NCBI GenBank assembly: GCA_026874595.1 | Contig: CM049309.1 | Span: 19,285,576 to 19,349,575, forward strand | Length of the DNA: 64,000 nucleotides | Source of the DNA: Sipunculus nudus | Taxonomy: Eukaryota; Annelida; Sipuncula; Golfingiida; Sipunculidae | Direction: 5' to 3' | Shown: positions 16,697 to 55,600 of the stretch, in pieces | Numbering within the stretch: position 1 is the first letter of the stretch | Layout: each line of letters begins with the position of its first letter | Position numbers and translations under genes: made by a program | Notes under the pieces: model-generated | What the model saw: the letters and a program-made list of their open reading frames with translations, nothing else | Database searches by the model: none | What the model was told of the DNA's origin: nothing

Positions 16697-19600
16697 CACA
16701 TTTGATTAATAAAAATGACCAAGTGCATGATATTGTACATGTGAACAGGTGCAATATGCATGTATTAATTACTTTTTTATTCTTGTTTATTAAATCATGT
16801 GAAATAATTATTTGCAAATCAGGAGAAAATAAATATTTGACTGTGCCCTGTTTTCAAATCCTCTTGATATTTTGCAAAAAATACTTTTTAAACAAAAATA
16901 CAGTATCACTCCTATCAAAGAACCTCATCTCTCAAGATAGACCATTTCCTTAGCAGTATTAGGGAAACCTTTACTTTTTAAAGATTTATGGATCTACATG
17001 ATATATGCATATGCAGGTAAAAATTCTTTTAAAACTATGTAACCACAATTTTTGTGTAATTTCTCCCATTATGTTGCAATCTGCAAAGTCTGGTTCATAA
17101 TTACAACACACTTTCAAGGCATTAACAACTCTACAAATATGAGTTAGAGAGTGTACACCTACACAAAACACAGATTTACATTAAGATAAAACCTTGAATT
17201 TAATCAGCAAACCAAATATATGTTGTAAATACATGTATGGTTGAACAAATATCTATAACAGTTTAAGAGCAGTTCTAAACAACATGAAAGTTCCTGCTCG
17301 TTTCTTCATTAAATAACATGTTATTTTCATAAAAAGATTACTCCTGTTTTTGATATTAAAAAAAAAATAACAGAATTAGCAGTTCTGATGAAAAAGGAAT
17401 CGGTTATCATTTCTGTAAATAAAGATCTGGCATTAATCTGAAAAATTTTACATGAAGAGTACTCCTGTTTTTTATATATTTTTAAAAAATTAATAAAAGA
17501 TATAGCAATTTTGATGGAATGGAAATTGGTAAAAATTTCTCTAAATAAAGATCTGGTATAACATTAAGAAATTTTACTTAAAATCAAATTAGGTTTCAGT
17601 AAAAAAATACAGAATATCCTGGATAGCTTCTAAAAAAAATTAACATACATTAGGCCATAATATTTCACAATTATTTTCAAGTCTAGTTTAACTGATCACA
17701 TTTTACATGCATGTTTTGTCTTGTATAAAGGCCATTTTATAAGAAATATATACTAAAGTTTTATCTATCAGTGTTAACTATAAATAACTGAATTTATTTT
17801 AATAACTCCATTTTAAAGTTTTGTAAAAGTAATAATTAAAGAAAATTACTGCTGTGACATGGTGTGATGATCTTGCCTTCATGCATGGTTGGTCACAAGG
17901 GTAGGGTAGAGGGGAGTCTTCAGTGTAGCATGGGGTTTCTGTGGGAGACCTGATTAGGAGAAACCGTACCTCACATCACAGATGTCAGTGAGTGATTGAA
18001 GCATGTTCTGGGGGAGGGTTGTGAAGCCCTGTCTAACACCAGGTCTCACCAGAACAAATCCTGTCAGTCCCCTGAGTATGAGCTGATCATGGTCTCAAAC
18101 CCCACACTGGTCATATTAATATAAATATCATACACCCTGACCCACAGACATTCATGGTTCTTATAGCTTACTGTTAACATCTACACTACATCTACAAAAC
18201 TAAACCCCTACAGGACTAAATCTGTCAGACATGAAGTTCCTCAAGAGTCAAGTTGCTGGTCCTCGCAAGCAGCAGAACAGACACAGCTGCAGCAAGACAA
18301 GACCCGTGAAAGCCTGTGGTCTGCTGTGTGTTCCTGTGAGAGCTTCATCTAACACTGAAACAGCCTCTACAGACAGCTCCATGTATCAGTCACCAGGTGG
18401 CACTGACACAACCCTGGAGGTGCTGGAACAGTCCACTGTTGCTGTCATCAACTCTGCTGACCAGACATCACTGTGGGGGACATCAGTAGCTGTTACTGAG
18501 ACCAAGTGCTGTGACAGTCCTGTCTACCCATCACCGTGTCATCAGCACAAGACATTCTTTGACCTGAGTAACAGTTCCTGCTGTGACTGCTCCAGAGATG
18601 ACTATGGCCTAGACCAGCCTGTTCCTGGAGTACCAGGTGTGTATGACAGATTTCTGGGGAGTGACACTATGGTAACAGACAGTGAAAGTTCAGCTGATGT
18701 GACATCATCTCATAACCTTGGTGACACATTCATCATCTCCAGAAACCAGAACAGAATCCTGCCTAGTTCTGATTCTTCTATACCAGAGGCCACTTATTGT
18801 TCTGAGCTGACCCCAAGCATGCAGGACTTGAACCTGGCTGTTCAGGATGTACAGAAGATCAGACGAGGACTGGGACTGAGATCGCAGCCGCTGCCTAGCA
18901 AGGGTGCTGCTCACTATACACCAGATCCCAGCAGCTGCAGCTCACGAGGAAAGTTTACAGAACAGTCACTGAGGAGGCTGGCCAGGAAGATGAAGAAGTT
19001 CAGGAACAGCTGCTGCAGTCAAGACAGCACTGGTCACATCTGGACACTCGGTCACTTGTAATATGGACAGTTTAGGAGAGTTTATGTAATCCATGCTGTT
19101 TCACACCTTGTATTGTATATATGTATATAGATGTGTATACTGCCTCTGAGAGGTTTGTTACTGATTCACCTGTTATTTGTTTCACTAGTTAATTTTACTT
19201 ACAAATAAAAGGTAAGATATTGTTTACTGTGTTGAATTATTAAGTGTGTGTGTGTATACATGTGAGTTAGAAATTAGTGGATTAATTGTTATGACTTGAT
19301 AACATATAGCGTTATTAAAGGTCCATTTATATCTTTAAAAGATATACAAAGACTTCATACCTGGAAATAAACATAATATATTTTGGAAATTAATATTTAA
19401 TAAATATAATAAAATATAATGCAAATTAGATATAGAGAGCATTTAAAGAGTGCAAACCTTAGCCAATCACATCTATTATTTGCATCAAGAACCAACTGTT
19501 TTGAAAATACAAAATTATATCACCAAATGATCATGCCAGTGACAATGCATTTTCATGGGAGACAGATAGTGTCGGGTATCAGTTGTAATTTCATGATCAA

Positions 19601-31600: not shown

Positions 31601-34600
31601 AGCATACAAAAAGACCTTATGTGATTTATACCTTATTAACATTAGGCAAAAAAAAGGTATGGTTCTCAGGCACTTTTTTCACAAGCCAATGCGAGCAGGC
31701 GATATTTTGTATTACCTTAAATAAAAATGTTTGATGAGATGGTTAAAACAGATGCTGGCAGTACCTGAGAACCATACCTTTTATTTTTTTTGCCTTAGAT
31801 CAGAATATTTTTTTTTTCTGGATATCATGTACGCTCCCGAGGCAGCGGAAATCTTGCACTTCTAAAGAAGCAACTGATTTTCACTCTGCAAGCTTTGACT
31901 GTTTATGATATATTTAGACACCAGATGGCGGTTCGTTGTCTGCTGAACAAAACGTGCGTATGATGTGACAAGCAGCCAACCAGATGCCAATAAACAAACA
32001 CTCGACAGGCATCCTGGCTCCGCCCATAGCTGCGCTTCAAGCACCGCTTGATGAGAGGTAAAGGTCAAATTTTAATTGCTCCCTCTGTATTCTCGCATCA
32101 TCGACCGATTTGATTATGACATTATGACTGTGTTAGCTGGCCATGTATCTGTGGTCTGCAGAACTGAAACCAGCCAGCGAGGTGTGCACGCAGGCTTTGT
32201 TGTTACGTTTTGTTTGAATTACACCTCACCGGTTGGGCATCCTATGTGCCCTAGGCAAATCACGTCTGGGGCAATTCTCTTCGAGCCTGTGGCCTGTTTA
32301 GACGGTTACCGGGGTGATGGGCTGTCACTCAAAACAAAATGAACATGATTGGCTCTGTGTATTCCTTGCTTGGCCGTGTCTTACAACACAAGGTCTCATC
32401 TGATTGGACGAAAATACAGTGCTCCCCTCTGGTGTAGCAATTCAGAATACAAGGTCATAACAAACAGGGCTTACTATAAAGGGAGTTGGCCTATAGTTAA
32501 AGCGCTGTGTAAAGAGCGTAGATATCATGAATTCTTTTCAAGTGCAGAAAAATAATTTGTGATCGATCATGCAAAAATGCAACTAATTTAATTTATTATG
32601 AAAGAAAACTACTAATCATCCATTAAATCAATTAATTGGCCCACCACTGATTATCATTACCATCTGTCATGTCTTCCAGCATGGTCCTCTTCCTCTCCTC
32701 ATCCACGTCGTTGTCCTCGGCAACCTTCAGGAACACCTGGATGTGATGAAAAGTTACATACTTTGTATGAGGAAAAAAAATATGTTAGAAAAATTATTAT
32801 GAAGAACATCCAGTAATACACATTATTTGCACACAGACAACTGTTTTTTTTTTATCACAATTCTCTTCATAATATTTGCATAAATTATAAAAATCTTTCA
32901 AGGTTATTCTATTTCATGACTTAATTTTATGCTTATTTTCTCATTCAATTTACTTACAAAATAATCAAAATCTTATTTTTAGGTATCATCAGCGATATGT
33001 TTAGGAAAACTTGAAATGAATAAATTACAATCATTTAAAGCACATCCAACTGAAATTTACTAACTAATCATTTATAATTTACCAAAATCTAAGGGGAAAT
33101 ATTTTTAAAGATATCTTTTCATTAATGTATTTATATACTGTTATCAGGTGCTCATAAAAGCAGACCAAACTGTCACGCTAGTGAGGCTTGCTTTTCTAGC
33201 AAAGAGGTTGGAATTCAAGACATGTGCGCCACTGACATTGGTTAAAATCTGGGATTAACCCAATATCTTCCACTGAGCAAAATGTTAACATAACATATTG
33301 GGGCTCATCCAAAATGAGGCCCAACTTTGAGAAAGCTGGGGCTATAGGAAGGTAGTTTGAAGTATAGGATAGCTCACCAAAAAAGTTAAGTAACGTAATT
33401 CTGAAAGCAGAACTCTCTTAAGAGTGGGTGTGTTACCCGATGCACAGAAAGTGGACTGAACTGTCCCACCAGTGAAGTTTATTTTCCCCTCAGCAAAATG
33501 TTTCTTGTGACAATACACATGTACCTCATTTGCAAGGGATCATGTGAACCTTACCTCTTCCAGTGTTGTATCAGAGATTCCATAACTAGAGATATCCAGC
33601 TCTGTCAGCTTGCTGTCCAGCGCTGTAAACAGCTGTTGGAAGGACTCGCAATGTGACAGGCCTGAGGGGAGCTGGTAGCACAGCTCTGAACCCACAGACT
33701 CTACCAGCTTGGCTTGGGGAACATACTCCTGAATGAAACGTGTCAGGGAGCTCTCTGAAGTGGCGCCACCTGTCTCTTCCACCACATCCATACTGTCATC
33801 TTTTTCAAATTCTCTCTCAATGTCTGGTTTCTTGACCTAAATAATATTTAGACATAGCTACTCATTTTCACCATCTGTCCTGATTATTAGCATTTAATAA
33901 TACAGTCATATTTTCAAAATTACTTACCTGAAAATGGAAATAAATTTACTCATGTATATATGTTTACCAAGATGGAAATACATGTGTTATTATGTATTTA
34001 TTTTAAAAGACTATTTTTTTCAGGGTTTTCTAGAGGGAAAGTGAACCATCCATGATTAAAAAGTTCATGTTCTATAAGTTTAATAATGTATATCAATATG
34101 CATAAAGAAATAAACACAAAAATACAAACTTCAATTTAAACTTAAAATTAATCTGTAAAACCTGTTCGCATTTCCTACAACAAAAATATCAAAGACTTAA
34201 TTCTTTTACATCATTACACATTCTATGAAACATGGAATATGAGCTTAAATAGAATGTTTGAGACATATCTTACATCTCCATTGGCTAATGGAGCTCCTAT
34301 GCCGTTAGCTTTGGCTTCTTTCTTCACCAATGTCAGGTAGTAACCGCTACCAAACCGGCTCTTCAGGAAGAGGCTTGATCCACAGCAGCACAGCTTGCCT
34401 TGGGAAATGATAGCGATCCGATCACCCAAGATGTCTGCCTCGTCCATGAAGTGAGTAGATAAAATGATAGTTCTGCCTGTAATTAAATAAAATGTTTTTA
34501 TCCACCTTGATGCTAAATTGTTCACGACTTTGAAACAGCACCCATTATCCCTGACAGGAAGGATGAAGGACTTCAGATATTTTAAACCCATAATTGAATG

Positions 34601-37600
34601 TTTTAAAAGCTTTTTTTTCAAAACGCATATTTAAATATTGTAAAAGCTCATTTTTTCTAATTTGCTTATTTTGACATTTCCGGTTTGAGTGATACCCTAC
34701 TAGTGGTGTGATAATTTTTTAATTAAATCAATGATTGGTCATTTTCTTTCAATTAATCTGGTTGTATTTATGCATAATCAATTAATTATGTGTGCACAAG
34801 CATGCAAAGATGTAACATAACCCAGACTGAAAAGACAGAACAAGTGTCAATAACCAAGCTGTTATCTTTACCTGTCAGCCTGATGTGAAATTCAGGCTGA
34901 TTTTATTCAGTCAATATTTTAAGAATAATTCTACATTCCAGATTTCATCATAGATGATTAATAAAATAGCTGATTTAGAACAGATAATTGCCTCTGAGAG
35001 GAAGGTATGCTTTCATTTCTATTTGTGTGTTTGTTCACCACATAATTCATTGAATCATGAATGGAATCTCATGGAATTTTCAGGGCATTTTGTGAATGGA
35101 CCAATGAAGAATTGATTATATTTTGGTGTGGATCTGACCCATGATCCAGACTCACCAGCATCACCCAGGAATATTCACAAATGTACAGCCACTTATGCAT
35201 GAAAGAACCTCAGAATGTGGGCTGAATAACTGAATGGCGTAGGCTTGCATTCATTAGAATCCAGATTGGTCTTTTTTTGTTTTGACCGTCGAACATGACT
35301 TTACAACCAGTCCCTCCCACTACTACCTACCCTGTCGGTATTTGAGGACCAGTTCCCAGATTGACCTCCTGGCATAGGGATCAACACCAGCAGTTGGTTC
35401 ATCCAGAATCACGACCCTTGACCCTGCCACAAAGGCCAAGGCCACAGACAATTTCCTCTTCATTCCCCCTGAAGAAAAATACAAGAAACAAGATGATTTA
35501 CATATGGATGCTTTCTACCCTAGCAAATCACCCATACACTGTATTACAAAGTATATCATTACTTCATTTCAACATTATCAATTTCTATGGCAACTACTTT
35601 TTTGCTAAGTTCTTCAAACTTTTGTTTTGAGGAAAAGTCCTAATTTAGTACTAAACCCTTCTGTGAAAGTATTCTTGTTTTCAAGCTAAGGATCTCAATC
35701 CTGAAATAAGCCCTCCATATACTTTTCCATCAAGATTTAGTCAGTAAATTTGCAAGTCATTCATATATAGAATTACTCAGATACTATACAGGAGTTTGTG
35801 CATGTAATGGTAGCTTTCCATGTATACATATGCAATACATTTGTGTATGCAGTATATATCTGAACGCAGCTATAAATGGGCACCTGTGATTCCATTAATA
35901 TGTATGCATATGTGGTACATATGCAGCAAAGTAGGCCTATAGTATACAGTTATATTAGCAGAGAATTCATCTGCCGGAGGAATACCCTATAACTGATATC
36001 ATGATTCCCCATCTGTTATAATGCGCATGCATTTTCAATCACTTCCCTGAGCGAAACATGCCGCATACCCATACATATATAAATATACAAAGTTTATGAA
36101 GAGAATATAATGTGTGCAATTCCTAGCTACATATGCAAACATAATGCCTAAGTACTGCAACACATATGGAATGCTATCTTCAGAGTTAAAGAGCATTACC
36201 AGAGAGATTTTTGGCTTGTTCATTCCTCTTGTTGACCAGTCCTACATCCTGAACCATCTGTTCTATCTCTGTCTTCACCTGCTGTGATTCCAGTCCCTTC
36301 AGACAGGCATAAAACCAGATCTGCTCATCCACAGTCAGACTGTAATTATTCATATACATAATCAGTATTAATAAACTATTATCCCTTTCATACACACAAC
36401 AGTTTAAAAAATTTTGGGCAATGAAGATTAATAGGTTTCAAACCATATTGTGCATCTGGCACCAATGAATGAGGTGTTCATTTCATATGTGAAAATAATG
36501 TAACAACATGATGACATAGCATTCGTGCTGTGACCAAGTTTCCATTTTCCAACTGAAACTTTTGACTTAATTTCCTGTGACTTTGCCATACAGAGACCTG
36601 TGACTTTATTCCTTCCAATGTTTGTGACTTTTTTTGTGACTTATTTCTTATGCAAAATTGTGACTTTATTTCCCAGTCCCTTTTATTCCCTAGAATAGAA
36701 TTCCCACACTTCAAGACAAAGAGCAGGTAGGTTTTGTCGTCACAGCATCTAATGCTAATGTATTGTTTGGCTACCATAAAAGAATCCCTCACGTGTCATA
36801 GAGGACGTTATGCTGCGGACACATGCCCATGCTCTTACGGATCTCCTCCATGTCGCTGCGGATGTCCTTGTTGTAGATTAATGCAGTTCCTTGTGTGGGT
36901 GGGAACAGTCCTGTCAGTACGGACCTGGAAAATAATATACACAACATGAAGCTTCAAGATTAAGAATATAACATTATATGCAAATCTGCTGCCTAAAGGA
37001 ATGTGGTATTATTTGTTCAATATTCAGGGTCATTCAAGGATGCAAAAGAATAAGTCCATTATTGCAAATATTTTTTTTTTATAGATATACACACATACAT
37101 ATATATAAATATATATATATATTTAAAAATATGACGGCAGTTGCTTTGATGAAAAAGTCTGTGTTATGTTTTTTATTAAAGATATAACACAAATATAAAG
37201 TTTAGAATATTGCAGTATTTTAATCAAATACATTTCTGAAATTTATTGGACTATCACATTGGGTACAGGTAACTTACATTGTTGTGGTTTTGCCTGCTCC
37301 ATTATGACCTAGGAATGATGTGATTTGTCCTTCAAAGAAGTTCAAGGTCAGCCCATCCACGGCAACCTTCTGACCTCTTTTATAGATCTTCTTCATACCT
37401 CGGATTGCAACACCAATGCGTTCATTTTGTGGCTCTGTCTCGAAGTCTCCAGAACCTATGTAATTGAATCAGGCCCTTCAGCTCAAAAGTCCAACATCTT
37501 AACCACTACACAACATCCTACTGCTTTACATTACATTTTTAAAGTCATTGCAGTTTTAATCTTGAAATTCCATATTTTACCAAGTTTGAAAAAAAGAAAC

Positions 37601-40600
37601 ATTCTAACCATATAGAATAGTTTAGTTTAAAACATAAAAGAGCAAGTTTAACACTGAGTTTGTCCATCATTATCACTTTGAGAAACATCAAAGGACTAAA
37701 AAACAAAATATTTAATATATATATTTAAGGTTTAACTGAAAAACATAAAACTGCAGGTAACTGCAAAAATTATAACTAATGGCAAATCACAGGGCTACAT
37801 GATCAAAAACACTGAAACTTCAAGAAACGGAGATTTGCAAGAGTGACCAACTTGTGTTGTTTGGATCCATCTCGTATGTGCGGTCTTCTGCTGTAATATC
37901 AGGGTAATGGCCGCCTTTACCACACCAGTATGATCTGGTCACAGGGAAGTACCATACACGAGGAACACCATACTGGCCTGAAGTATATTTAAATACACAC
38001 TCTGATTTCAAGCAGATAACAACTGGTGCCTTGTTTGCTTATATTAGCCTTCATCAATTCATGTATCAATACATTCATGAAACTTAAATATCAGTCCATA
38101 ATACCATGAATTAAATTATCTCATTCTTCTGTTAATCATACTTTATCACTGATAATCTTTTAACAAACTGAACCATTACTGAACACTAAATGGTTAAACT
38201 AAAATAATTATTTTTTTTCTAAGATCTGTAAACTGCAAAAGGTCTATCATACTTTATGCTCAATTTCTGCTCACATGATGAGTAATATATATACTACCAC
38301 TTTAACATTACCATCTTTGTATGATGACCACTGTATATTTGATATGACCATGACCACATAATGAAAATACAAAGTTAATAATAGCTAAAATGACTACATC
38401 AGTAAAGAAAATCAGTTTTAAATTGGGAAAGCAGCTGTGCTTATTAGCGATCAAACAGCTGGCAGATTTTTTACACATTCACTGATTCAAACTCCAGTAC
38501 TGTTACCATTACAACAATACATTTTCTCACATAAAACAAAATTTCAAAAGACAAATGATGGAAATATCATTCTTTTAGGCAAATAAAAAATACTTTGGCT
38601 TAATGTGAATTATAACAAATACATGTTTAAGAGTGTGTGATTGGTGCGAAATATCCTGAGAGTGTAAAATATTACTTAAATAACCATAAAAATTTATATC
38701 TTAATATGTAAAGCTCCTCAGAGTACATGATTCAGATTTTAGTAAAATATTTATTAAGTATTATTTCAGGACCAGTGTTTATATTGTGTTTTACTGCACA
38801 GTTTACCTGGGAAGACTGCCTCAATATACCAGGTGAGTACCCAGTAAATGAACGCATCCAGCAACATCATAACTATGCATCCGAGCATGCTGTAGGAGTC
38901 CTCGGGGATCGGGCTGCGAGCCATGTTGTCAAACTGTATCCCAATACCTTGCTCTTCATAGCGTGCTATGTAGCTGCACCCAAACCCAAATGCCACTGTT
39001 GAAGACAGGCACTGGAAAGTGATAAATATGGATTATCTATACAAAGAATGCACACTGTGCATAATCAAGACTCACAAGAGTACAATTATGCTGGTTAGGT
39101 TTGTGGCTTCAAAATCTGCAGCCCACATTGCATTGGAGGTTCAATGTACACAGACAACATAGGTATAAATATAGTGAAGAGAGTAATGTAGTCAGTTAAA
39201 ATATTTTGGACAAGCATGGTTTCAAGGCAAGATACATAAACATGGGTGTTTTTGTGAAAGGACTTCATGGAATAAGTAATATTTTGTAAGCATGCACATG
39301 TGAAATGTAAAAAGGTGTTCTCCCACGGAATGTAACAAACTTTGATTTTAAAGTTTGACAGTTGAGACTAGTATTCCTGGTTGTCCCACAGTTCCCAACA
39401 GGAAGACATTTATTCTGAGCAGAAACAACCTCTGGCAGAAACCCTGCACAGAATGTGGCACCTACAAACAGTCACATTATCGAAAAAATGAACTGGCCCT
39501 GGCTCTTTTTTAATGAAAATTTACATGATTTCAATGTAGAATAAACGGGTTACTTCCTAAAAATAAAAGTTGGTATTTGGAGCATTCTCAGTATAAGGCT
39601 GATTTTCATTAAGTACTGAATTTTCATTTTGTTATTTTTTAACATTTTTGATAAATTATCAGGTAAGTTTAGCTGATGAAAATTAGACAGTAAAACCACA
39701 ATAGTCAGAATTTAGGTATGCATGATTCTTGTCATACCAGAAATATAATTAACTTGATTACCAGGTTGGATCGTTTTTCCGTTGCAAATACAGAAATATG
39801 TCTCCCCTCCCTATGGGCCTCCTCCATCCCCGAATTTAAGGAGAGAAATATGGACTATTTCAAAAGTTTGGGTTCACACAAAAAACCTTAATTTCTGAAG
39901 ATTTGAATTTGAAGATGAAGGTCAAGGTCACAAGTATTCAAACTTTTCTGAAATTTTGATAGAAACTAAAAAGCAAGCAAGGCAGATTTCAGGTTTTATA
40001 TGCATAGGGTTACAAATAACCTAGAACTTAAAACTTGCTGTTGCAATATTATCCTTAATGAACAGGCTACATTTTACACTACTCTAAGAGTTTAACAATG
40101 ATCACAAACCCCAAGAGCCTTTTGTGAGAATGTCATCAGTTCCTCCCACTGAACAATGAGCGTGTAGGGCAGGTAGCCAATAAAGTAGAAGACACCGCCG
40201 CACGCCGCAGCCACATTAGCTTTTGAGAAGAACACACTGAACAGGAAGCACTGCATGATGGTTGCCACGGTGAATGCCAGCAGGAACAGCAGGATCACCA
40301 TCGGGTTGGAATGTTCCAGGACCTTACCACCCTGAAAGAATGATAAGGTATATGAATATACAATATATAATCATATGCTATAGATATACATATACATGAC
40401 ATAATAAATAAGATCTAAAATGTTGGGTGATATATATTGTAGTAGGAACGGATTAAATGACCTGCCCAAGGATCCGGGACCCGTCATAGGACCCCCCAGT
40501 TTTACGCCAGAAGACCTCGGGTGAGTGTCGTGTGTATAAGGGCCGAGCTGTAGAGAGCCATCGAGGAGTCCATGTCCGATTGGAGCTGCCTGTTGGCGTG

Positions 40601-43600
40601 TTTGAGGTCGTACTACGAGGTGAGACTACCTACATCTACTATAATGGCGACGAAGGATGATTTGGAGCGGGTTTAGCCCCGGTTTTACCTCTTAGATAGT
40701 CGGTAGTCGTTGTATCTAGATCTTAGCTCGGCAAGGAGCCGCCATTTTGCTTGGCGCGCTAGTCAAAAACTTTGGTCTCTTTGCTGACTTCAGCAGTCGA
40801 GACAAGCTAAGTACAGCGTTGTCTTGTGTTTACTTAACTGGACAATTAGTTGTTCTTGCCTGTTATTGTACTGGATAGAGCTGTCAATAGTCTTAGTGCT
40901 AGCAATAGTCGAATTTCGGTCTTCTCCATATCGTTTTGATCAGAGCTGTGATCACGTGACCCCATGTTTCTGGTCAAGATCCCAGAAATTCTTCACTCTG
41001 AACGATTTTTTGTCACGTATTTCCTTGAGTATTGCCCTAGAATATTTCATATTCTTCTCTGCCCCCTTGATTAGCTGCAATTTCTGTGGTTACAGACAAT
41101 TTTCCTTTATATACCTTGTTAGGATCGGAGTTTGTACGAGTTTATACTTGTATGCTATTACTGTAGTATTAGCCCCTTTTGTAGTTCACAGTCTGCCTGT
41201 ACTGAGGCCCAATCTTGTATTTTTAATGTGCAGGTACGGTCAAGGTTGTTTGCTGACAAAATTTTTTTTTAAGCCATCAGTAGTGATGGGTGGGTAAGCA
41301 GGAAGCATGAGGTAACCCCATATTGCTGTTGTTGTATTGTGCTTCCACCAAGTTCTTTTATAGTCTATTATAGACTGGAGCAGTCGAGACAAGCTAAGTA
41401 CAGCGTTGTCTTGTGTTTACTTAACTGGACAATTAGTTGTTCTTGCCTGTTATTGTACTGGATAGAGCTGTCAATAGTCTTAGTGCTAGCAATAGTCGAA
41501 TTTCGGTCTTCTCCATATCGTTTTGATCAGAGCTGTGATCACGTGACCCCATGTTTCTGGTCAAGATCCCAGAAATTCTTCACTCTGAACGATTTTTTGT
41601 CACGTATTTCCTTGAGTATTGCCCTAGAATATTTCATATTCTTCTCTGCCCCCTTGATTAGCTGCAATTTCTGTGGTTACAGACAATTTTCCTTTATATA
41701 CCTTGTTAGGATCGGAGTTTGTACGAGTTTATACTTGTATGCTATTACTGTAGTATTAGCCCCTTTTGTAGTTCACAGTCTGCCTGTACTGAGGCCCAAT
41801 CTTGTATTTTTAATGTGCAGGTACGGTCAAGGTTGTTTGCTGACAAAATTTTTTTTTAAGCCATCAGTAGTGATGGGTGGGTAAGCAGGAAGCATGAGGT
41901 AACCCCATATTGCTGTTGTTGTATTGTGCTTCCACCAAGTTCTTTTATAGTCTATTATAGACTGGACAGGTACTTTTAGTGTAGTAGGTCCCGATACTTT
42001 TTGCATTGTTTTTCATATTCCTCTTTAAACTGTATAGATCTGGACCCTGTGCATGCACTTTGCTGACTTACTTGCTTGTTCATGTTGTTGAGCCCCTATT
42101 ACCTTTGTTGTTGGTTATGAGCCCGGCATTGCTTTTTGCTAAATTTGCGCATCCCTAATCAGCTTGCGTTGTTTGTTTTGCTAATCATTGCATATTCCTT
42201 GTGTGCATTGGGCTCCCTGTCACACAGGCAACCTTCCCTGTCCCTTGTTACAACTGGCATCATGGCCCAATTTCAAAATTCTATTGATGTAAGTTCTGCT
42301 TCGGTGTCCCAATTGGTCACCTATTTCACGGATATGCTGTCCCCAGCCACTATCCTCCACATTGTTCGGTTGCGTGAGTCAACCCCTGATTTTGGCCTAC
42401 CTGATTTGGCTCAAGCTACTGGTCTAGCGTTAACCTTTTGGGAGCGTCTTTCCCGGGAAGGCAAGATTCGTCTTTCGGGTAAGACGGGTGGGCCCCCGAA
42501 TCCCGGCCCAAACGATTCCTCCATAGATCGAATCCTTCATGCACTTCCTACCAAAGCTGTATATGTCCCGCCTCCAAATATGTTGAGGGAGGGGAGTGTA
42601 AGAGGTGACTGTTTACCCCAGTCTAGAGGTGTGGGAATGCGAAATGGTCCCAGTGTAGACCAAACCCAGCCTGAACTCGGTCGTCATGCTGGAGCCCCCA
42701 GTAATGAAGGCAGTAGTCCAGCGTCAACGGCTGGATATTCCCAGCAAGGTATAAGTAACCTTGACATATTAACGATGATTGGGAATTCAGGTCCTCGGTC
42801 CACCCAGGGCGATATTAGGGGGGAAGTATACTATCAGGGAACAAATGAGGGTTTTGACCCAGCTACAGGTCTTGCTTTAAGCGTGCGTCGAACTTCTGCC
42901 CCCTTACCAGTGAATTCACGCCCGGGTACTCAACCGGCCTCAGGTAATGTGGGTCCCTATAATCACACACAGCGGGAGGCGTATGACCAGGGCGTCCTCT
43001 GGGCTCAGCCCACTAGATCCAGCCGAGTTAGCAACAAGAAACGGCCTTCAAGGCCTAAGAAGAGTGTAGACAGACACGAACGGCGTCGCCGGCATAGGTC
43101 CAGTTCCTCTGAGTCAAGCGACTCAACCTCCGAAGAACGTGGCGGCACACGGTCCCGTAAGAAGCATCACCGGCGTCGGGTTAGGTCCATCAGCTCTAGT
43201 AATGGTTCGAGGCATAGGAGAAGGGATAACAGAGCCAGTTCTTACTCCGAAGATTCAGACTACTCTTGTTCACCTCACCGCCATGGCACCAGAAGGAGAA
43301 GAAGGAGCCCAGACATCATGAAGTTAGGCACCTTCACAGGCGATAGGAATTGGAGTGGTTTCTTCTTCCAGTTCCAGAGGTTGGCAGACAGGCGAGGATG
43401 GTCTAGACACAAGAAAGCAGAAAAACTTGTCGACTCCCTTGGTGGGAGGGCCCTTGATTATGTCAGAGAGCTTGAATTGGAAGGTGACTACAAACGCTTA
43501 ACTAAGAAGTTAGAGCAACGTTTCGGCATGAGAGATGCACCTATCACTGTGCGTAGGGAGCTTCAGTTTGCAAGACAGGAGGACCAGGAGACCCTGGAGG

Positions 43601-46600
43601 AGTTTAGCGAAAGGGTTCACGTCCAGGTCATAAACGGTTTCCCGGGCGCCACAGAAGATACAATTCAACAGCTTGCCATTGAATACTTCCTGAGGGGATG
43701 CGGCGACAAGAAAGCAGCAGTTAGTGCCATGGGAAGGAACCCAAAATACCTCCACAAAGCTCTTCAATACGTGAAGGATGCCATCAACAACCACCGAGCC
43801 ATTTATGGGAAGATACACATAGCCCGTAAAACGGTAACGTTCGCCGAGAGTGCAACGTCAGAAATGGAAGGTCAAGTTGACACAAAGCAGGCCCAGTCGA
43901 CAATATCTGAAAGGGTCAACCCGCGGAATGGCACACAACCCGAAACCAGCGACCAGGCTTGGGCGCAAATGAACAAACGCATTGACAGTCTGGAAGGATT
44001 GATCAAGAAAGCCTTAATGGTGTCCAGGCCCCGATCCGTAAGCCCAAGTAGGCCCCAGCTAAAGCCTGCTAATAGCGTCTGCTACAAATGCAATCAGCGA
44101 GGACACTTTCAGAAACAATGTCCAAATAGTGAGGGCAATCCTGCCTATAAGGAACCAGAACAGGGTTTAAAAGGCCAAGGGTTGCGTTAAACGGCCTAGA
44201 CGCAACCCAGTTATCAGAAGGCCATTTACAAGAAACAGAGGCTGACGAGGCCAATCGTCAGCACTCATCGACCCAGCTAGGTGGGGCGGAGCAAGGTCAG
44301 TCTCCCCTTCAGCGGGAGGACTCCTCTGTCAGTTCAGGTACTCAGGAACGTTTCTGTGAGGCAGAAGTTAAAGTGTGCCAAACTCAAGGACTAACGCTAG
44401 TAGCCCCAGTTAAGATAAACGGGGTTGACACCCAGGCTGTGATCGACAGTGCGTCTCAAATCACTGTGATCAGCCTCAGCTTTTATGATAGTCTACCCGA
44501 GAAGCCTGTATGCACAGGCACAGCCACCCTGAAAGGGATTGGCGGGGATGATTCGGCGCTTACAGCAGAGCGCGCCCCTGACACAACTATCCAGTTCGGA
44601 AAGAAAGCGTACCATTGGCCAGTGTACATAGCCAAGATATCAGATTCAGTGCTTCTTGGTCTAGACTTTCTACTGGCACAAAAGTGCACGGTTAATTTAG
44701 AAAACAAAACCGTAAGCTTACCGGGAGAGGTAGTACAGGCTTCAATCCGGACAAGTCCGGATGACGATATCTGTGGATGTTCAGTAGTCGCTGCAGCGCG
44801 GAGGGTGCTGCAACCCAATGCGGTGAGCACCATCCCTATAAGAGTCCTTAGTTGCAGAGTTGAGAATTGCGACTACTTAGTTGAACCCAAGTTTAGCCAG
44901 GCGGAACTATGGTCCCCCAAGATGCTCACTAGGAGTAGTGGGCGCATAGAAGTTTGCAATAGTTCCAACAGGTGTATCACGCTTCGCCCAAATCAACCTG
45001 TGGGCGTGGCGACAGGAGTAGAAGGGATCCTTACATCCATAAGTATCGAGTCTGCGGACTATAACAGTGCTCCAACAGGGGGCGCTGTGCCAGTTCCACC
45101 AATGCCAGTGCCCACTGTCAGACGCGTGTCTGGAATTGCAGGGGACCAGTTAAAGGAGAATACAGAGGGCAGAGTGGTACCAGACCATCTGAAAGAAATT
45201 GTCAGTCAGGTCAGGGAGACAGCATCAAAGGATCAGGCCACACAATTAGAGAAGCTCTTGCTAACGTACCATGACGTTTTTGCTAAGCACGACCTGGATC
45301 TAGGTTGCTTGTCTGATGTTCGCCACAACCTGGATACAAAAGGCCACGCGCCAGTCCACCAACGCATGAGGAGAGTTCCAATCAGTTTCGAACAGGAAGA
45401 GAGGAGCCACCTAGAGAAACTCCTAGCAGCAGGGGTTATTCGCCATTCTAGTTCGGAGTGGGCCTCAGCACCAGTGTTGGTAAGGAAGAAGGACGGAGGG
45501 ATGAGATGGTGCATAGATTTTAGAGCCCTGAACGAAAGGACAGTCAAGGACACCTACCCTCTCCCCCTAATCGAAGATTGCTTGGATACCCTGGCTGGCA
45601 CTGTCTATTTCTCCACTCTTGACTTAGCCTCCGGCTACTACCAGATAGAGTTGGAAGAAGAGGCAAAAAGGAAAACAGCATTCATAACAAAGTACGGGTT
45701 GTTTGAACACAACCGTCTCGCTTTCGGCCTTTGTAATGCGCCAGCGACCTTTCAGCGTGCCATGAATCACGTGCTGAGGGGGCTCACGTGGTCCGAAGTC
45801 ATCGTGTACATCGATGACATAATCGTCCTCGGTACTTCATTTGACCAACACTTGGCCAGTTTGGAGAAAGTATTCGGACGTCTGAAACTCAAGCCAAGAA
45901 AGTGTGAGTTCCTGAGATCTGAAGTAGAATTCTTAGGACGGACCGTTAGCTACGAAGGTGTCAAGATCACAGACGGGAAAACGGACATAATCAGAAGTTG
46001 GCCAGTCCCTGTCACAAGGAAAGAACTCGAATCCTTCCTGGGATTCTGCAACTATCATCGCGCACACATCCAAGGCTATGCGGGAATTACTGCATGTTTG
46101 TATGAGCTGGTGAAACCCAAATCCATTTTCGTATGGTCTGAACAGCACCATGATGCATTCAAAGCACTCAAGGAGCGGCTGACTTCAGCCCCGTGCCTAG
46201 CGCTGCCTTCAAAGGAAGGAACGTTCATTTTAGATTGCGACGCCTCCGACTACGCAATAGGGGCTGAACTCTCGCAGTTGCAGAACGGCCAGGAGCGTAC
46301 CATCTCATATGCGAGCTTTACTCTGACCAAGGAGCAGAGACGCTACTGTACCACCCGCAAGGAACTGCTAGCGGTAATACGGTTTTGTCGACATTACAGA
46401 CACTATCTCTTGGGGAGACCATTTGTGGTAAGGTCTGACCACAATTGTCTGGCCTGGCTTATGCGTTTTCGGCATGTAGAGGGTCAGCTAGCCCGTTGGC
46501 TGGAGGAACTTGCTAACTATGATTTTAAGATCGTGCACCGGGCCGGCAATAAGCATTGCAACGCGGACGGCCTTTCCAGAATTCCAGCACCGCCATGTGA

Positions 46601-49600
46601 ATGCTACAGTGCGGGAGCTCGTACCCAAGACCTCCCTTGTAAGGGGTGTCAGAACTGCCAGAGAGCAAGTGAATAGTGGATCTGATTCACAGAAGATGTA
46701 GATGATGTGGTTCCTTTGGCAGTCAGGACATGTGAACTTGGGGTTACGGCCGAAGATACAGCTGATGAAGAGGAACCTGGAGATGCGAGAGAAATTGACG
46801 GTTCCTCAGATGCATCTGGATGCCATACAGCCACGGATTCAGGCAGTGAAGTGTCCGACACAGAATCCATCCCGGACCAGACGCCTAATTGGCTGGAAGC
46901 TTACTCTTCTAATCAGCTGATAGAGATGCAGGATGCTGACCCGGACCTAAAGCCCTTGGTATTGTGGTTGGACAATGGAGAGCCGAAGCCGGCAGAACTG
47001 CTCCTTACTAGTCCTGCAGTTAAATCTTTGTGGGCGTGTAGGTCCCAATTGCAGTTGAGGGGCGGTGTACTCCATTATATGTGGGAAGGCGATGATGGGG
47101 CGCACCCCTTATTGGTGGTCCCTGAGGGTTTAAAACAGGAAATCCTTAAACTTTGCCATGGCTGCCCCACGGCTGGGCACCTAGGAAGAGATAAGACCTT
47201 GGCACGCCTCCGTAGGTCCTTTTTCTGGCACAATATGGTCAGAGACTGTGCACTGTATGTGGCACAGTGTCAAGTCTGCAACCAACATAAACAGCCTGTT
47301 AGAACTGCAAAAGCAGGATTAGTCAACTATCATTCTGGATATCCAATGGAACGTGTGCATCTGGACGTCCTTGGGCCATTTACAACAAGCACACAGGGGA
47401 ACTCTTACATCTTAATGATGTGTGACCAATTCTCCAAATGGCTTGAGTGTGCGGCTATGCCTGACCAGACAGCGGAGACTGTGGCCAAGCAATTCATCAT
47501 GCATTTCGTCACCACCTTCGGTTGTCCGCTTATCGTTCACACCGATCAAGGCCGCAATTTTGAGTCGAACCTGTTCAAAGCGTTCTGTGAGAGGATGGGT
47601 ATAGCCAAGACTAGGACTACGCCCTACCACCCCTCTTCGAATGGCCAGGTTGAACGGCAAAACAGGAATGTGTTGCAGATGGTGCGGTGTATGATCCAAG
47701 GCCGGACTCGGGAGTGGGACGAAGATCTACCACTCGTCGTTATGGCTCTGCACTCGATGGTCAACCGAATGACAGGTTTCTCTGCAAATCAAATTATGCT
47801 GGGACGCGAGGTTTACCAACCCACCGATCTGATACTTGGTATAAACACAGATGAGCAAAGCCATACTCCTGAGAGCTGGGTCCATAACCTCACGAAGCGT
47901 ATGGAGGCCATTCACCATCGTGTGAGGGAGAAGTTGAAAGGTAACCTCGAGCATCAAAAACAACTGTACGACATTCTCGTAAGAGAGGATCGTTTTGGGA
48001 TGGGTGATGTGGTTTACCTCCGTGACAGGTCAACAAAGAAGGGGCAAAGCCCGAAGCTTCAACCCATCTGGAAAGGGCCTTATCTAGTGGTTAAGGCAAA
48101 GCCTCCATTGTATTTGGTCAGGACAAAGAAAAAAGAGTCCTACCATCACCACAACAACCTGAAGCATTGTGCAGACGGCTTTCTTCCCCATTGGCTACGA
48201 AGAACTCGCGCTCAGTTATTCCATCGGGAAACAGCCACCTTACTAGATCAGTCTGAATCCATTCCAGAATCCTCTGATGGTGGTCAAGATCCGGCAGAAG
48301 GAGGGTCAGCACCGACCTCGTCAGGGGAACCTGCAGTAGCTGTTGCAGCCTCAGAGGGCGCCCTTGGTAGTGATCCCGCCGTTTCGGATCCTAGTAGCAG
48401 TATAACTGAAGATATTCCAAAGGGAAGTCCAGAGCCTCTTTCTGAGTGCCAGGATTCGGGGATCTCGCCACTAGACTCACCAGCCCATAGCAACAGGGAG
48501 TCGAGGCGTAAGTGCCGGAAGCCGGCTTATCTTAAGGATTATCTTATGCCATAGCGTAAGGTGCATGGAGTTATAGATAAGGCGTTGCCACTTATTGTTA
48601 TTTAGAGTTACATTTTGTAGAGCGATGGAAGACCCAGAGAGTCTTGGGGAGGACAGATTTGTTCCCAATTATGAGCCCGTTCCTGGGGCTAAATCCGGTG
48701 CTACTGGCAGCATCAGGAAGTCCAGGCGCCAACACACTTGTCGTATATGTGGGGAAGATAGCAGTTCCCTTGGCCGGCATGTGGCAACTGACCATTTGCC
48801 CTGGTGGCACCACCCGTTCACAGCATGCTGGACGTGCAGAGTCCAGGAGTCGTCCAAATGTTTCCTTAGGCTTAGGCATACAGGGGTTGGATGCAAAAAG
48901 TTCGATGATAGTAATCTGTTTGAGGACTTGTGGGGATTATGGGTATACCAGTTCATCCAGTTCATTACCCAAAAATTAGGCTTGGGTGAACCCTCTGATC
49001 TCAAGGCATATATCCTTCAACACCAGTTGCATAACCTTAATCCTCATCCGCCAGGGTTTAACGAGGAAGAGCAGGTACTCTTAGCCAAGGTAGCTTCTAA
49101 GTACGGATGGGAGATACCCAGTGTGTTTAATGCTAGGCCCCCTAATTCGGAAATCTGTGTGATTCACTGGGACGTTCTAATGAGGCTTTTAGCCACACTT
49201 CCAGTTGATACTAGGTCTGCCATCTCAGGGTTCGTCCCCGACTCTAACACTCATGCCGCAGTAGTAGGCATCATAGATTCACACTGCCACCTTGACGTCA
49301 TGCTTAGCAGGGCAGATGCCAGGTCTCTAGCACAGTTCGAAGCCTCAGTGGGTGAGCCAGAGCGAGCGGTCTTAGGCATGGTTTCGAACTTTGTGTTCCC
49401 TCATTACTGGGATAGTCACCTTAGTTTGTCTGGGGACCGACGTATAAAGTGTTCTTTTGGTGTCCACCCTCGCCTCATCAAGTCCAGGGCAGCTCGCCAA
49501 CAGCAGTTATTGTCGCTTGAGCACCTTTTGGCCTTACCTTCCTGTGTAGCTTTGGGTGAAGTGGGGCTAGAATTCACTCATACTAGCACTAGGGAACAGC

Positions 49601-52600
49601 TTTTGCAGACTGGGTTCTTCAGGGAGGTTCTTAGTCTTCTGCGCCGGGAGGATTTCCAGTCCAAAGTCCTCATTCTCCACTGTAGGGATTACGGCTCGGG
49701 GGAGGCGGCTAGACAAGCCTTAGCCATGCTGTTGGATTCTGGGTTGCAAGGACATAAGATCCACCGTCATTGTTTCTCAGGGAATAAAGACGAGTTAGAG
49801 ACGTGGGTTAGTCGTCTTCCGAATTGTTACTTCGGGTTCACATCTACAGTACGTAGAAGTCAGGAAACCGAGGAAGCAGTATCGGTAGTGCCTCTTAACC
49901 GAATCCTAGTCGAGTCCGACAGTCCATACCTCGCTGCTTCCCCATGGCATCTCGGAGAGCTGGTTAAGTATTTGGCCCAGTTGAGAGGGTTACCAGTAGA
50001 AACCTTTGCAATGCACTGCAATGCTAATGCACAGGAGCTGTACGGAGCCTTTCCGGAGGGTACAGCCGATGTCTGCGATGCAACCCCTCGGTGAGTCCTC
50101 TGAGAGTATTCGTACAGCTAGTCCCCCTTATAAGTTGTACTCCGGTGGGAATAGCTCTCTTCGTTTATAGTTCTTTTCATAGTTCACTTGTTATTACCTG
50201 TAGGGCAAGGTTTTGCTGAGACAGTTTAAACTTAATAGGTTTAGAAGCTGTACAGTGTACAACGGATGCGTTGCCAATGTCTGCGGGGCAAGCCTCGGTG
50301 ACCCTTCCGACTTTGTACAGCTGATTGTCCCTTAGGGCATCACTAGATATGTTGTGTTGTTCCAAGCCAGAGTAATTTAGACCTCAGGTCGACAGGGTAA
50401 TTTTAGTGTTCAGTGTCCAGTGTACTGTCCAGTTTGACTACTTTGTCCAGTTGTTAGCTGCAAATGTTCAATATCCATAGTCTCGGGATATAGTCGCCTC
50501 AGTCCATTCTTTTGGAAGATGGGCTCACCTCTCACAAAAAGGGGAGGAATGTAGTAGGAACGGATTAAATGACCTGCCCAAGGATCCGGGACCCGTCATA
50601 GGACCCCCCAGTTTTACGCCAGAAGACCTCGGGTGAGTGTCGTGTGTATAAGGGCCGAGCTGTAGAGAGCCATCGAGGAGTCCATGTCCGATTGGAGCTG
50701 CCTGTTGGCGTGTTTGAGGTCGTACTACGAGGTGAGACTACCTACATCTACTATAATATGATATGACAACATTTTATAATTTGAACAAGTGCATATATAA
50801 AATTACCAAAACATTCTTGATGGTCTAGTCATACAAAGGTTAATTTTATGAAATTAATATTTAGTAAGACATTTTCACTTAATATTTAGTAAGACATTTT
50901 TATTATTTTAGTATATCCTCTACTGGTAACTTTTTTGGTATTTTCAGAATTTTTCAGAATCTATCTGATATTTCACAAATCTCATTGGGTACCAACATTC
51001 GTTTTTTATTCTGCAATAAAAATCAAGCCAATATGAAGAAAATAAAATCAGTAAAATACTTCATTAAAATAATATATGAACATAATATCAGAACAATCAG
51101 TTTTCAGTGATGAAACTATTTACGCAATGACACCTGCATGTACTGGAAAGACTTTTTTGTTTTTTCAGTATTTTTTCGGCATCTATCTGGTATTTTATGA
51201 ATCTTTTGTGGTATTCCATTTATATTCAGCACAAAAATTCCAGTCAATAAAAGGAAAATAAATCAGTAAAATGTGCACTGCATTAAAGTAATAGATAAGC
51301 ATTACTTTATCTGATAGTGTATGATATTTATCATATCTTTTTTTTGTAATGATTATTAATCAGTAAAATATAGTACTTCCTTGAAGTATCATTGTTATTA
51401 GAATTATATGAAATTTTTTAAATTGTGCAAGTAAATGAATGAATGATTATCTTTATTCTGGAAATGAAGACCTCAGCCCATAGATCCAACATGTACATAC
51501 ATAATACATAATACCTGGTTGCGTGAAAAATAATTAGAAATGATAGAATTAAATAATAAAAATAAATAAACAATAGCATGTATACAGTTTTAAACAATTC
51601 TCAATTATTATTTACAAATTATTAACAGAAATAACCTTATTGTGAACTGAATAAAGATAGACTGTATAAGGTAACTAGTAATATATAAATGCAATATACA
51701 AACTAGCAAAGGTTTTAAAATGAGTATATAATGCAAAAGTTAAATGTTTTCCTTGACATTCTTGTTGAACAGAATTAGTACAAGAAGTATTTAAATATGC
51801 AAAAATGAAATTGAAAAAAAAAAATTATCAGAAATAATACTATTTCATGCAAGTGATGAGGATGCTGCCTGACCTTGAGGACGATGAGTAGCATAATGAT
51901 GCTGATGAACATCATGATGAAACAGGTGATAAACCAGGCCAGCCAGTGTACCCCGTTACCAAGCCCCATCACCTTCATCACCTCCTTCAAACGCTGCTCC
52001 TTCTCGTACACAATCCCCTTCACTACCATGGCAACCGTGTAGATCCATGCCAGCACCATAAACATGGGCATGCTGCGTGCAATGGCCATCGTGAAACTGA
52101 AACAGTTAATATACATGTATGTCATATAAAAATATTATACCTGTTCTACCTCACTGGCGACATCTGCTGGCAATGACTGACACCAAGTATTCTGGTCAGA
52201 TTTGTTAACAAAGTAATATTGTACTTTTTAATATTTATATGGTACAAGTATAGTAAAACTATCATAGTCTCAAAGGTTAGGTTCTTGCCTGATTATTTGG
52301 CATTGTAACAAAGCCACCATGCTTGATTACTTGGCATTATGCATGGCAAGTATGCTTGTTCAAATGGTCTATTATCAACATACTAACCAACACAGTATTT
52401 TACATCCCATGAAAACAGATATAGGTATATACAAAATACAAAAGTAATTTTTATCCTTACATGTCATCTATGTAGCAGGGGTAAGGAAACTGCTGGACAT
52501 ACACCCCAACCTTATCACTCTGTTTGTCAGCCCCCGTCTGTGTCACGATGATGCCGTGTTCTATCATATCCTGGAGGTAAGCGTAGCCACTGGTCACATA

Positions 52601-55600
52601 CTTCAAGTCCTGTGCCGGTCGTCTCCGGGGTCCTGGGCTCCAGTATCTGAAGGACAAATTGACAAGGTTTTACCATCTAGGAAGAGTAGTAAGTAAGGTC
52701 ATGGGACCTTTATGATGTCACAAGCAAAACGCTGAACCGTGAAACTTAGACACTCATGAGGAACAGCATACCAATACACAGCCCCATTTTTTCTAATAGT
52801 TAATTATGTAATCTTGTGATTAAAAAGTTAATTTTTCCATTAACAAATTTGTATTTCTAAATAAACATCTGGAGCAGATCATTGATGAATTTTTTAAGTA
52901 TAGATCATGGTCTTTAAGTTGTACTGTGTTTTCAAGGTGGAGGCAGGTTACCAAGTCAAGTGACTGATATATCATTAGAAATCTGCATCCAAATGGATAC
53001 ATGCCTCCACCATGGGAGCACACATTTAAAAAATTCTCTGCAAACACAATGGACTCACACTTTAACAATCTCTAAGATGGAAGTGTTACCATGGTAACAT
53101 GCTCACCTGTCAAGGACTCTTCGTGTAGAGTCTATCCTATCTGTGTCCATCCTGATCTTGTAAGATACATGGGTACCAACGTCTCCCTGTCCTTCATCGA
53201 CCTTGAACACGATGCCTGTAATCATACATATAACTTAAAGTAAATTTTACACGATTGCAATTTTTCTTCAAATGATTCTAGATTTTCTAAGATATGCTTT
53301 GCTTTGATATGCTACATTTTTCTGTAAGATTTGTAATTGCTCAAAAGTTTCACCAGAAAAAACATCTCCAATTGGTAAATACAGTGCTTATTCTGACAGT
53401 TCAAGTTAGAATTGTCTGTAAATGCTCATGATTTTTTGTGACAGCTCAACACAGGTTGCAATTTCTTATAGTTGTCTGCAGCTGGATGCACATTTACACT
53501 TTTTAGTAATGTGTAAAACAAATAACATCTAGTGTGTAATATTTATTACCTTCAGCACAGCACTTACTAAGCACAACTTATTTTCTCTTGTCTACAAATG
53601 ATTTGTTAATGCATGCAAGGCTCTGTAACATCCTGTTGGTTGTTTCAGTAAAAATAACCCTTACCTGCCCATAGAAGCTGGTCCTCTATATACTCCAGTC
53701 CTACTTTGATAAGTTCTTCCTCACTGTCATATGGTTCAAATTTGTTGAACTCAAAGCACTAAACAAAAGGATAAAAATACTCAGTTGTATTAAAGCACTA
53801 AACAAAAGGATAAAAATACTCAGTTGTATAAGAGCACTAACAAGAAGGATCAAAATACTCAGTTGTATCAAAGCACTAAACAGAAGGATAAAAATATTAA
53901 GTTGTATCAGAGCACTAAACAGAAGGATAAAATACACAGCTGTATAAGAGCACTAAACAGAAGAACAAACATACTTATTTGTATCAGAGCACTTAACAGA
54001 AGGATAGACAAACTCAGTTGTATCAGGGCACTAAAAAGAAATATACACATTCTCAGTTGTATCAGAGCTCTAAACAGAAGGACAGACACACTTAGTTGTA
54101 TCAGAGCACTAAACAGAAGGACAGACACACTTAGTTGTATCAGAGCACTAACCATAAGGATAAAAATACTCAGTAGTATCAAATAACTAATCAGAAAGAT
54201 AAAAATACTCAGTTGTATTAAGACTTAAACTGTCTGACACAGGCAGTGTAATCAAGTTTAGTTAAAAAACAAAATATAACTCACATTATCCAGACAAACA
54301 TCTACATAAAATTTTCAAACTACACATGATATACCATGGCTTTTCAAATATATTTATATGCACTTAACTCTCCTCTTATCCATACGGTAAAATATACTGT
54401 GCAGACATTTTTATTTTTAAATTATTATGCACTCTTATAGTGAAACAACAATAATGCCTACAAGAATATATTATACAATAATACTATATAAGTTATCAAG
54501 TTAATATGGTCACCACTTCATCTGAACCTAATTATATCTCTGTACTCCTGCTCTAGTTTGTTACAGGTTTCTTACAGGTTTTTCTTTTCTATATCTTCTT
54601 TATCTCTATTTCTTCTTTATTTCTTTTACCAGTTCTAACAGTTGTTTTACAAACTCTTATTCTCGTTCAATCTCTCTTCTTTCTCTCTCTCTCTCTTTCA
54701 ATCTTCCTTTCTTCCCTTACTCTTTCACTTTCTCACTTTTTTGTCTCTTTCACACTTTTTCTCTCTTTCTTTTTCACTTTCTCTCTTTCACTCTCTCTCA
54801 ATTTCTCTCTTTCTCTCTCTCTTTCTCACAAACTCTCTGTTGCAATGCTACAACATTTTTTTCCTTGTATCATTACACTTTTAAATTTTTTCTCTAAAAC
54901 CACTATTTAATTTAATTTATCCTTCTAGTGACTTACATCTAGGTACTTTTTCAGCTGTGCCATTGCTATACTGGTGTAGTTGATGGAGTCTCGCCAGTCA
55001 TACTGCCCAGGAACCTCTGGCCCTTTGTTCAGCCATCGACGGTAAGTATTGATGATGCGGTTATCAGGGTATTCAGTGTGTGCAATGTCAAGATACAACT
55101 GGAAAAAAGCATGACGTATAAGTTAGAACCATCACAAGCTATTTTAAAATTAACACAGCTTCACGAAAATCAGTCATGACCTCACCTGTCACATTTTCTC
55201 TTTCATCTTTTTGCAACGAACCTCTCATTGTTTCTGCCAGGAGGGTACGCATTCATCCCTGTTTGTGTGTGTTGGTTGGTGTGTCTGTTTGTGTGGCTTT
55301 GATGGTGTGTCTGTTTGTGTGTGTGTGTTTGTTCACAACATAACTCATGCAATCATAAATGGAATCTCATGAAATTTTCAGGGGATTTCCGGAATGGGCC
55401 AATGAAGAATCAATTAGATTTTGGTGAGGATCCAGCACATAATCCCAATTCAGGCATGTCATCAAGGGATATTCACTAATGTAACACTATGCATGAATGA
55501 ACCTTCGACTAAGTGAATGCAAACAGAGTTTTGGGAGCAGCCCACAATAGGGACCCCTCACATGGCAGAGGCTTGCATTCCTTAAAATGCAGATTTCTTG

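Follow-up and report, generated by a model that had tools for sequence, protein, structure and literature searches.

The window analyzed here, a stretch of 64,000 nucleotides from the genome of Sipunculus nudus (contig CM049309.1, forward-strand positions 19,285,576 to 19,349,575), contains a 10.3-kb element at window positions 40438-50755 that carries a gene for a TatD-type nuclease in addition to gag and pol. On the basis of its paired long terminal repeats (LTRs), target-site duplication (TSD), primer-binding site, polypurine tract, gag zinc knuckle and a pol order of protease, reverse transcriptase (RT), RNase H and integrase (IN), the element is a Ty3/Gypsy LTR retrotransposon. Its third open reading frame, ORF3 (48625..50094, plus strand), was recognized from the list of open reading frames (ORFs), from Pfam and from a structure model, and specifies a zinc-finger-like/TatD nuclease of 489 amino acids. 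As an initial annotation of this DNA had proposed, the 489-codon frame lies inside identical LTRs, with the integrase upstream and the polypurine tract downstream.

ORF3 starts with an ATG and contains zero internal stops, whereas the longest plus-strand open run in 1000 base shuffles of positions 48555-50549 was 233 codons. A Pfam scan placed the TatD_DNase family (PF01026) at residues 217-474 with 141 bits against a cut-off of 27 (E 5.6e-41), and the same family was matched by all 12 members of set A1; the only other Pfam match was a sub-threshold amidohydrolase. The catalytic part (49261..50091, plus strand), delimited by PF01026, the metal ligands and the structure model, holds all six of the ligands that the initial annotation had listed (H220, H222, E312, H352, H382 and D432), and residues 214-482 of the model superpose on TatD structures as a TIM barrel. 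Preceding it is an N-terminal domain (48715..49260, plus strand) defined by the ligand pattern C39-C42-H52-H57 and C68-C71 together with helices, and confidently modelled as a helical zinc-type fold (predicted local distance difference test, 89; predicted template modelling score, 0.86); C39 is nearly, not fully, invariant. No match to this N-terminal model was found among solved structures, and a protein-database search with the N-terminal region returned 108 candidates, none of them significant. This null result is not taken as absence, because the region is shared at 49% identity by P0001, a relative from another sequence record.

The remaining parts of the element, all on the plus strand, are in the expected order. 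BLAST identified a 5' LTR (40438..40643; TGTAG...CTATA, 206 bp) and a 3' LTR (50550..50755) that do not differ at any position. The two share 208 bp in BLAST, of which 206 bp were assigned to the LTR because 11 of 12 copies, those readable there, diverge after CTACTATA. The TSD, ATAT, occupies 40434..40437 and 50756-50759 in AT-rich, low-complexity sequence. A probable primer-binding site, TGGCGACGAAGGATGA, was located by eye at 40645..40660, and it may resemble the 3' end of a tRNA-Ser. The 5' leader contains a 598-bp tandem duplication (40786..41969; 99.5% identical by BLAST) that is probably private to the window copy, which spans 10318 bp versus the commonest span of 9745 bp among LTR pairs of its family, here called F1. 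The gag frame (42136..44190; first ATG at 42262) has a CCHC zinc knuckle in Pfam, and a PNMA match under the Pfam cut-off. According to Pfam, pol is in two parts: protease, RT and RNase H (44373..46676), with an in-frame stop at the end, and integrase (46707..48554), with H2C2 (PF17921) and rve (PF00665) domains and an MLV-type C-terminal match under the cut-off. In-frame stops thus break pol between RNase H and IN in the window copy; in nine other F1 copies, the frame listed at the integrase is open over 1472 aa. Finally, the polypurine tract, AAAAAGGGGAGGAA, was read from the sequence at 50536..50549.

The TatD gene is not a one-copy accident. In the genome (1.43 Gb, 153 contigs), scoring 87 of 336 candidates gave at least 93 matches to the TatD protein, and these merge to 76 loci. 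F1 comprises 16 full-length TatD copies at 95-100% identity, the window copy included, of which 14 lack a stop. A second family, F2, whose TatD is 40% identical to that of the window, has ten near-full-length copies, all without a stop; many older loci do have stops in TatD. Twenty loci outside F1, representing about a dozen families by our own grouping, were fetched and, together with the window, make up 21 loci that were read closely. In 19 of the 20, Gypsy matches (protease-RT-RNase H and/or IN) precede TatD on its own strand, and at most about 1.1 kb separates the end of the nearest one from TatD. The twentieth, L101 (G000:C7:62422367-62431246, oriented 4369-6954), is a 2.6-kb LTR-TatD-LTR unit whose TatD frame runs without interruption to the terminal stop; the two LTRs match at all but 2 of 225 positions, the 4-bp TSD TGCT is present at both flanks, and a pol match was absent from the 5 kb fetched upstream. 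L101 is thus a non-autonomous, TatD-bearing element without gag-pol, and was presumably moved in trans. A search for LTR pairs located TatD, whole or in pieces, inside 28 of 30 elements of the two youngest families (17 of 19 for F1 and 11 of 11 for F2), and in a few pairs it is split in two, e.g., at C1:83.20 Mb, C3:94.05 Mb and C16:32.43 Mb. The earlier proposal that a young Ty3/Gypsy element bears an intact TatD ORF where env would be expected is thus upheld, and the ORF is multi-copy: TatD adjoins pol or lies between LTRs at all 21 closely read loci, it is not confined to the window copy, and it is not a set of host exons lying outside LTRs. Short tandem duplications were also seen upstream of TatD in other families, at L096-L098 (about oriented 4473-4734) and L112-L113 (about 4397-4739). 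Open, bacterial-type TatD matches of up to 233 bits occur on the small contigs C61, C62, C64, C65, C66, C69, C72, C74, C75 and C89, which are probably bacterial.

Conservation of the enzyme extends across these families. Among the fetched loci, the catalytic part is 32-46% identical to that of the window; the six metal ligands are retained in 17 of 20, and the full set of 16 key positions is present in 16, that is, everywhere but in L102, L108, L110 and L115. In six between-family pairs, fourfold sites of the catalytic part differ by 62-84%, 41-64% of residues are identical, dS (synonymous divergence) is beyond measure and dN (nonsynonymous divergence) is 0.29-0.65. With one locus taken from each of 13 groups, pairwise distances correlate at r = 0.53 for RT versus the TatD catalytic part (P 0.001), 0.57 for IN versus TatD and 0.52 for RT versus IN (12 groups); L114 and L115, which were counted apart, may be one family, their RT fourfold difference being 0.12. 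Across about a dozen families, therefore, TatD divergence tracks pol as well as RT and IN track each other. Within F1, where 12 of the 16 full-length copies were compared, mean nucleotide distance is 0.0040 for TatD, 0.0066 for the integrase tail, 0.0102 for 3' non-coding sequence and 0.0106 for the LTR, and the ratio of nonsynonymous to synonymous polymorphism (pN/pS) is 0.37 in the catalytic part and 0.33 in the integrase tail.

Some members of the lineage lack the gene. For 52 of the 67 integrase loci closest to that of the window, a same-strand TatD match was present no more than 4 kb downstream, and none was listed for the other 15; the TatD positions used for this count came from the main genome search plus 20 from a further search. 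For 11 of the 15, 3 kb of downstream sequence was fetched. Three of these (L116-L118) are F1 copies that have undergone internal deletion. A single deletion junction is common to L116 and L118, with nearly all of TatD gone and the 3' LTR kept, while L117 retains a short 5' piece of TatD. The fetched 3 kb contained no TatD at L119 to L126, and L121-L126 are homologous to one another over some 0.8-1 kb, up to a common endpoint, as a complete 3' end would have. The two F1 LTR pairs without TatD are L118, confirmed by sequence, and the pair at C4:63.58 Mb, for which no match was listed and the sequence was not fetched. In an integrase tree of 33 rows, each covering at least 180 of 451 columns, TatD-less L128-L132 stand beside TatD-bearing L107, and TatD-less L127 beside L113/L138, both with 100/100 support. 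The simplest reading would be that TatD is ancestral to this Gypsy lineage, with at least two later losses; the tree has no outgroup, and gains are still formally possible. The window copy is young, as had been annotated, but capture of the gene would not be recent, with the ORF common to about a dozen families and at least two likely losses.

Related proteins occur beyond this genome. Ten near-full-length relatives, at 31-45% identity, were found in other records, one of them labelled as a Sedimenticola metagenome-assembled genome, perhaps representing host DNA in a symbiont bin. In a TatD tree that took 11 of the 21 element TatDs, these and the ten relatives split from 20 bacterial-type TatDs and a host gene with 98/100 support. 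The relatives P0001-P0004 are placed among the S. nudus families (99.5/100). Other genomes thus contain related genes too, and the diversification probably predates the species. P0009 (TatD) and P0034 (IN) are each on an 'ena' contig of 7874 bp, suggesting that they sit on one contig, although chance is possible among 120 listed IN rows and adjacency was not seen. Searches of viral contigs gave three TatD loci at 25-26% identity, the best 80 loci from genome contigs were all prokaryotic records, and a BFVD search produced a single match under 1e-3, from Yasminevirus.

Regarding the source of the gene, S. nudus also has an intron-bearing TatD gene of its own (L143, on C1), which is the host gene of the tree. 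The motif HRHCF is shared by L143 and 9 of 11 element TatDs, and its first histidine is present in 0 of the 20 bacterial-type sequences printed. Based on this motif, capture from a host TATDN2-like gene is plausible, 'TATDN2-like' being our own name in a comparison that covered L143, element TatDs and bacterial-type TatDs. The initial annotation had proposed that a host TATDN gene was captured. The shared motif speaks for it, but the score ranges of L143 against element TatDs and against bacterial ones overlap, with neither closer, and a search of 6 kb at the host TatD locus gave no N-terminal zinc domain (best match E 0.017). In addition, ORF3 is unlike the TATDN2 layout in having, according to the model, a folded N-terminal domain instead of a disordered N-terminus.

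On balance, we regard ORF3 as probably the third gene of an old and diverse Ty3/Gypsy lineage, joining a zinc-binding-type N-terminal domain to an active-site-complete TatD that is predicted to process the RNA and DNA intermediates of the element. The direct basis for this proposal is the location of the gene between IN and the 3' LTR, the intact young copies, the conservation of ligands and a divergence that follows pol. Most likely, ORF3 is an active, metal-dependent nuclease that would act on the nucleic-acid intermediates of the element, or on host R-loops or repair, and its intactness in young copies suggests that the enzyme helps the elements or counters the host. In the mechanism envisaged, ORF3 would be made as a separate protein and taken by its N-terminal domain to nucleic acid or to the particle or integration complex. 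There, while reverse transcription or integration proceeds, the nuclease could trim RNA or DNA ends, such as residual RNA on RNA:DNA hybrids, flaps or damaged ends, much as cellular TatD enzymes act on single-stranded DNA (ssDNA), RNA, apurinic/apyrimidinic (AP) sites and R-loops. Published work on these enzymes describes E. coli TatD as a 3'-5' exonuclease with ssDNA and RNA as substrates, and assigns AP-endonuclease activity to TATDN1 and TATDN3 (PMC12709183). ORF3 would be helpful under this scheme, yet not strictly required in cis, because TatD-less copies have moved.

Several observations weigh against such a role. TatD-less copies were themselves mobile, as seen from the common junction of L116 and L118, the two F1 LTR pairs and the TatD-less group, and the correlations with pol reach an r of only about 0.5 with one locus per group. 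The initial annotation had suggested dN/dS across copies as a sign of an enzyme kept active. Within F1, the ratio for the catalytic part agrees with this, but few changes are available and the whole-TatD pN/pS of 0.57 is no better than the 0.55 of a short LTR control; with the 3' non-coding control at 0.78, both controls being read as codons, the whole-TatD ratio alone proves nothing. The N-terminal part of ORF3 has a pN/pS of 1.2 in the 12 F1 copies, from 2 synonymous and 11 nonsynonymous variants. Among nine close pairs outside F1, catalytic dN/dS exceeds 1 in two degraded pairs (1.6 for L102-L103 and 1.4 for L112-L113) and is 0.63 in a third (L114-L115), ratios that include neutral decay following insertion. 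Finally, the activity and expression of ORF3 are predicted from sequence.

The main rival to the processing of intermediates is a host-directed role, in which ORF3 would degrade host R-loops or the nucleic acids of silencing, sensing or repair, with a faster-changing N-terminal domain as the surface of an arms race. We consider this rather unlikely, though deserving of serious attention. Identity to the window is 30-38% in the N-terminal part, versus the 32-46% of the catalytic part (L114 and L115 excepted), and the 11 nonsynonymous against 2 synonymous variants of F1 point the same way; furthermore, germ cells express cellular Tatdn2, and R-loops rise in medaka when the gene is knocked out (PMC12709183). 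These counts are small, however, L112 and L113 show no difference between N-terminal and catalytic parts, fast N-terminal change would fit relaxed constraint too, and no host target is known. A second alternative, that TatD was captured once as a passenger and has since been copied along without benefit while slowly decaying, appears improbable. The mobility of TatD-less derivatives and lineages, the stops in TatD of many older loci and the F1 ratios that are not clearly under their controls are all compatible with it, but a passenger would hardly be expected to keep an intact ORF and its ligands in most families at such low identity, or so many identical catalytic residues between families whose fourfold sites are near saturation. 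Very improbable is an env role for ORF3, in cell exit or entry, despite its being an enzyme: it occupies the env position, but TatD is its sole Pfam family above cut-off and the model consists of a helical zinc-type domain and a TIM barrel. An env-bearing, errantivirus-like element was similarly disfavoured, as Pfam reveals TatD_DNase and a sub-threshold amidohydrolase but no fusion glycoprotein. That the TatD loci are ordinary host genes in a coincidental retroelement context, a reading prompted by the existence of L143, is scarcely credible and is ruled out for the examined loci of this genome, where the many copies lack introns and stand after IN or between paired LTRs, and where L143 is distinct from them.

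Outside the element, minus-strand ORFs flank it on either side, at 34223-34621 and 51775-52125. The latter matches the ABC-2 transporter family PF12698 and the former has no Pfam match, and both are probable exons of one ABCA-type gene judging from their sequence; the insertion is therefore probably intronic. Elsewhere in the window, two near-identical inverted ORFs of 274 and 276 amino acids were noted at 14598-15422 (minus strand) and 18231-19061 (plus strand), one of which was scanned and had no Pfam match. At 53716-54230 there is a tandem array whose units are about 39 bp long.

Extra enzymatic ORFs are unusual in LTR elements. Orchid Ty3/Gypsy elements have reportedly acquired an m6A (N6-methyladenosine) demethylase domain; they likewise gained an enzyme, differing in which enzyme it is and in having plants as hosts. 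The QatD protein of Qat anti-phage systems (NF041926) is likewise a TatD nuclease engaged in genetic conflict, and ORF3 matches it with an E of 2.6e-25, but QatD serves bacterial defence and the 88.9 bits of the match are far under the cut-off of 230. Among retroelements, the nearest precedent is provided by bdelloid rotifers, in which LTR elements encode as ORF3 a DEDDy-type exonuclease (as in Vesta and Juno) or a GDSL esterase (PMC5408684). There too, a nuclease-type ORF3 is at the env position, with invariant residues said to be intact and a function described as unknown. The bdelloid enzyme is RNase D-like (DEDDy) rather than TatD, and the Sipunculus elements differ further in three ways: they encode an additional zinc-type domain, they form about a dozen families within a single genome, and their TatD divergence tracks pol. 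Cellular TATDN2/TatD proteins have the same catalytic domain and metal ligands, and the HRHCF motif is common to the elements and the intron-bearing host gene, but TATDN2 is described with a disordered N-terminus (PMC12709183), whereas the N-terminal domain of the element protein was modelled with confidence and its ORF runs uninterrupted within LTRs. No account of a retroelement with a TatD ORF was found in the open-licence PMC papers searched.

In a wider sense, it is possible, and we propose it tentatively, that a diverse Ty3/Gypsy lineage of metazoans uses a zinc-finger-type TatD of its own in replication, as a stable, anciently gained component and the first TatD known to serve a retroelement; that the module also travels as LTR-TatD-LTR without gag-pol; and that many multi-copy 'TATDN2' annotations in animals represent a mobile gene. 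Multi-copy TATDN2-like gene models should accordingly be viewed with caution, for they may be transposons. One putative TATDN2, which might or might not be such an element, is named among the non-Hox genes drawn with the Hox cluster of the giant squid (PMC6962438). The S. nudus genome offers natural deletion derivatives for comparison, including TatD-less copies and one TatD-only element, and the keeping of a nuclease in about a dozen families suggests a step in the element cycle, or in host defence, that lies outside of standard gag-pol.

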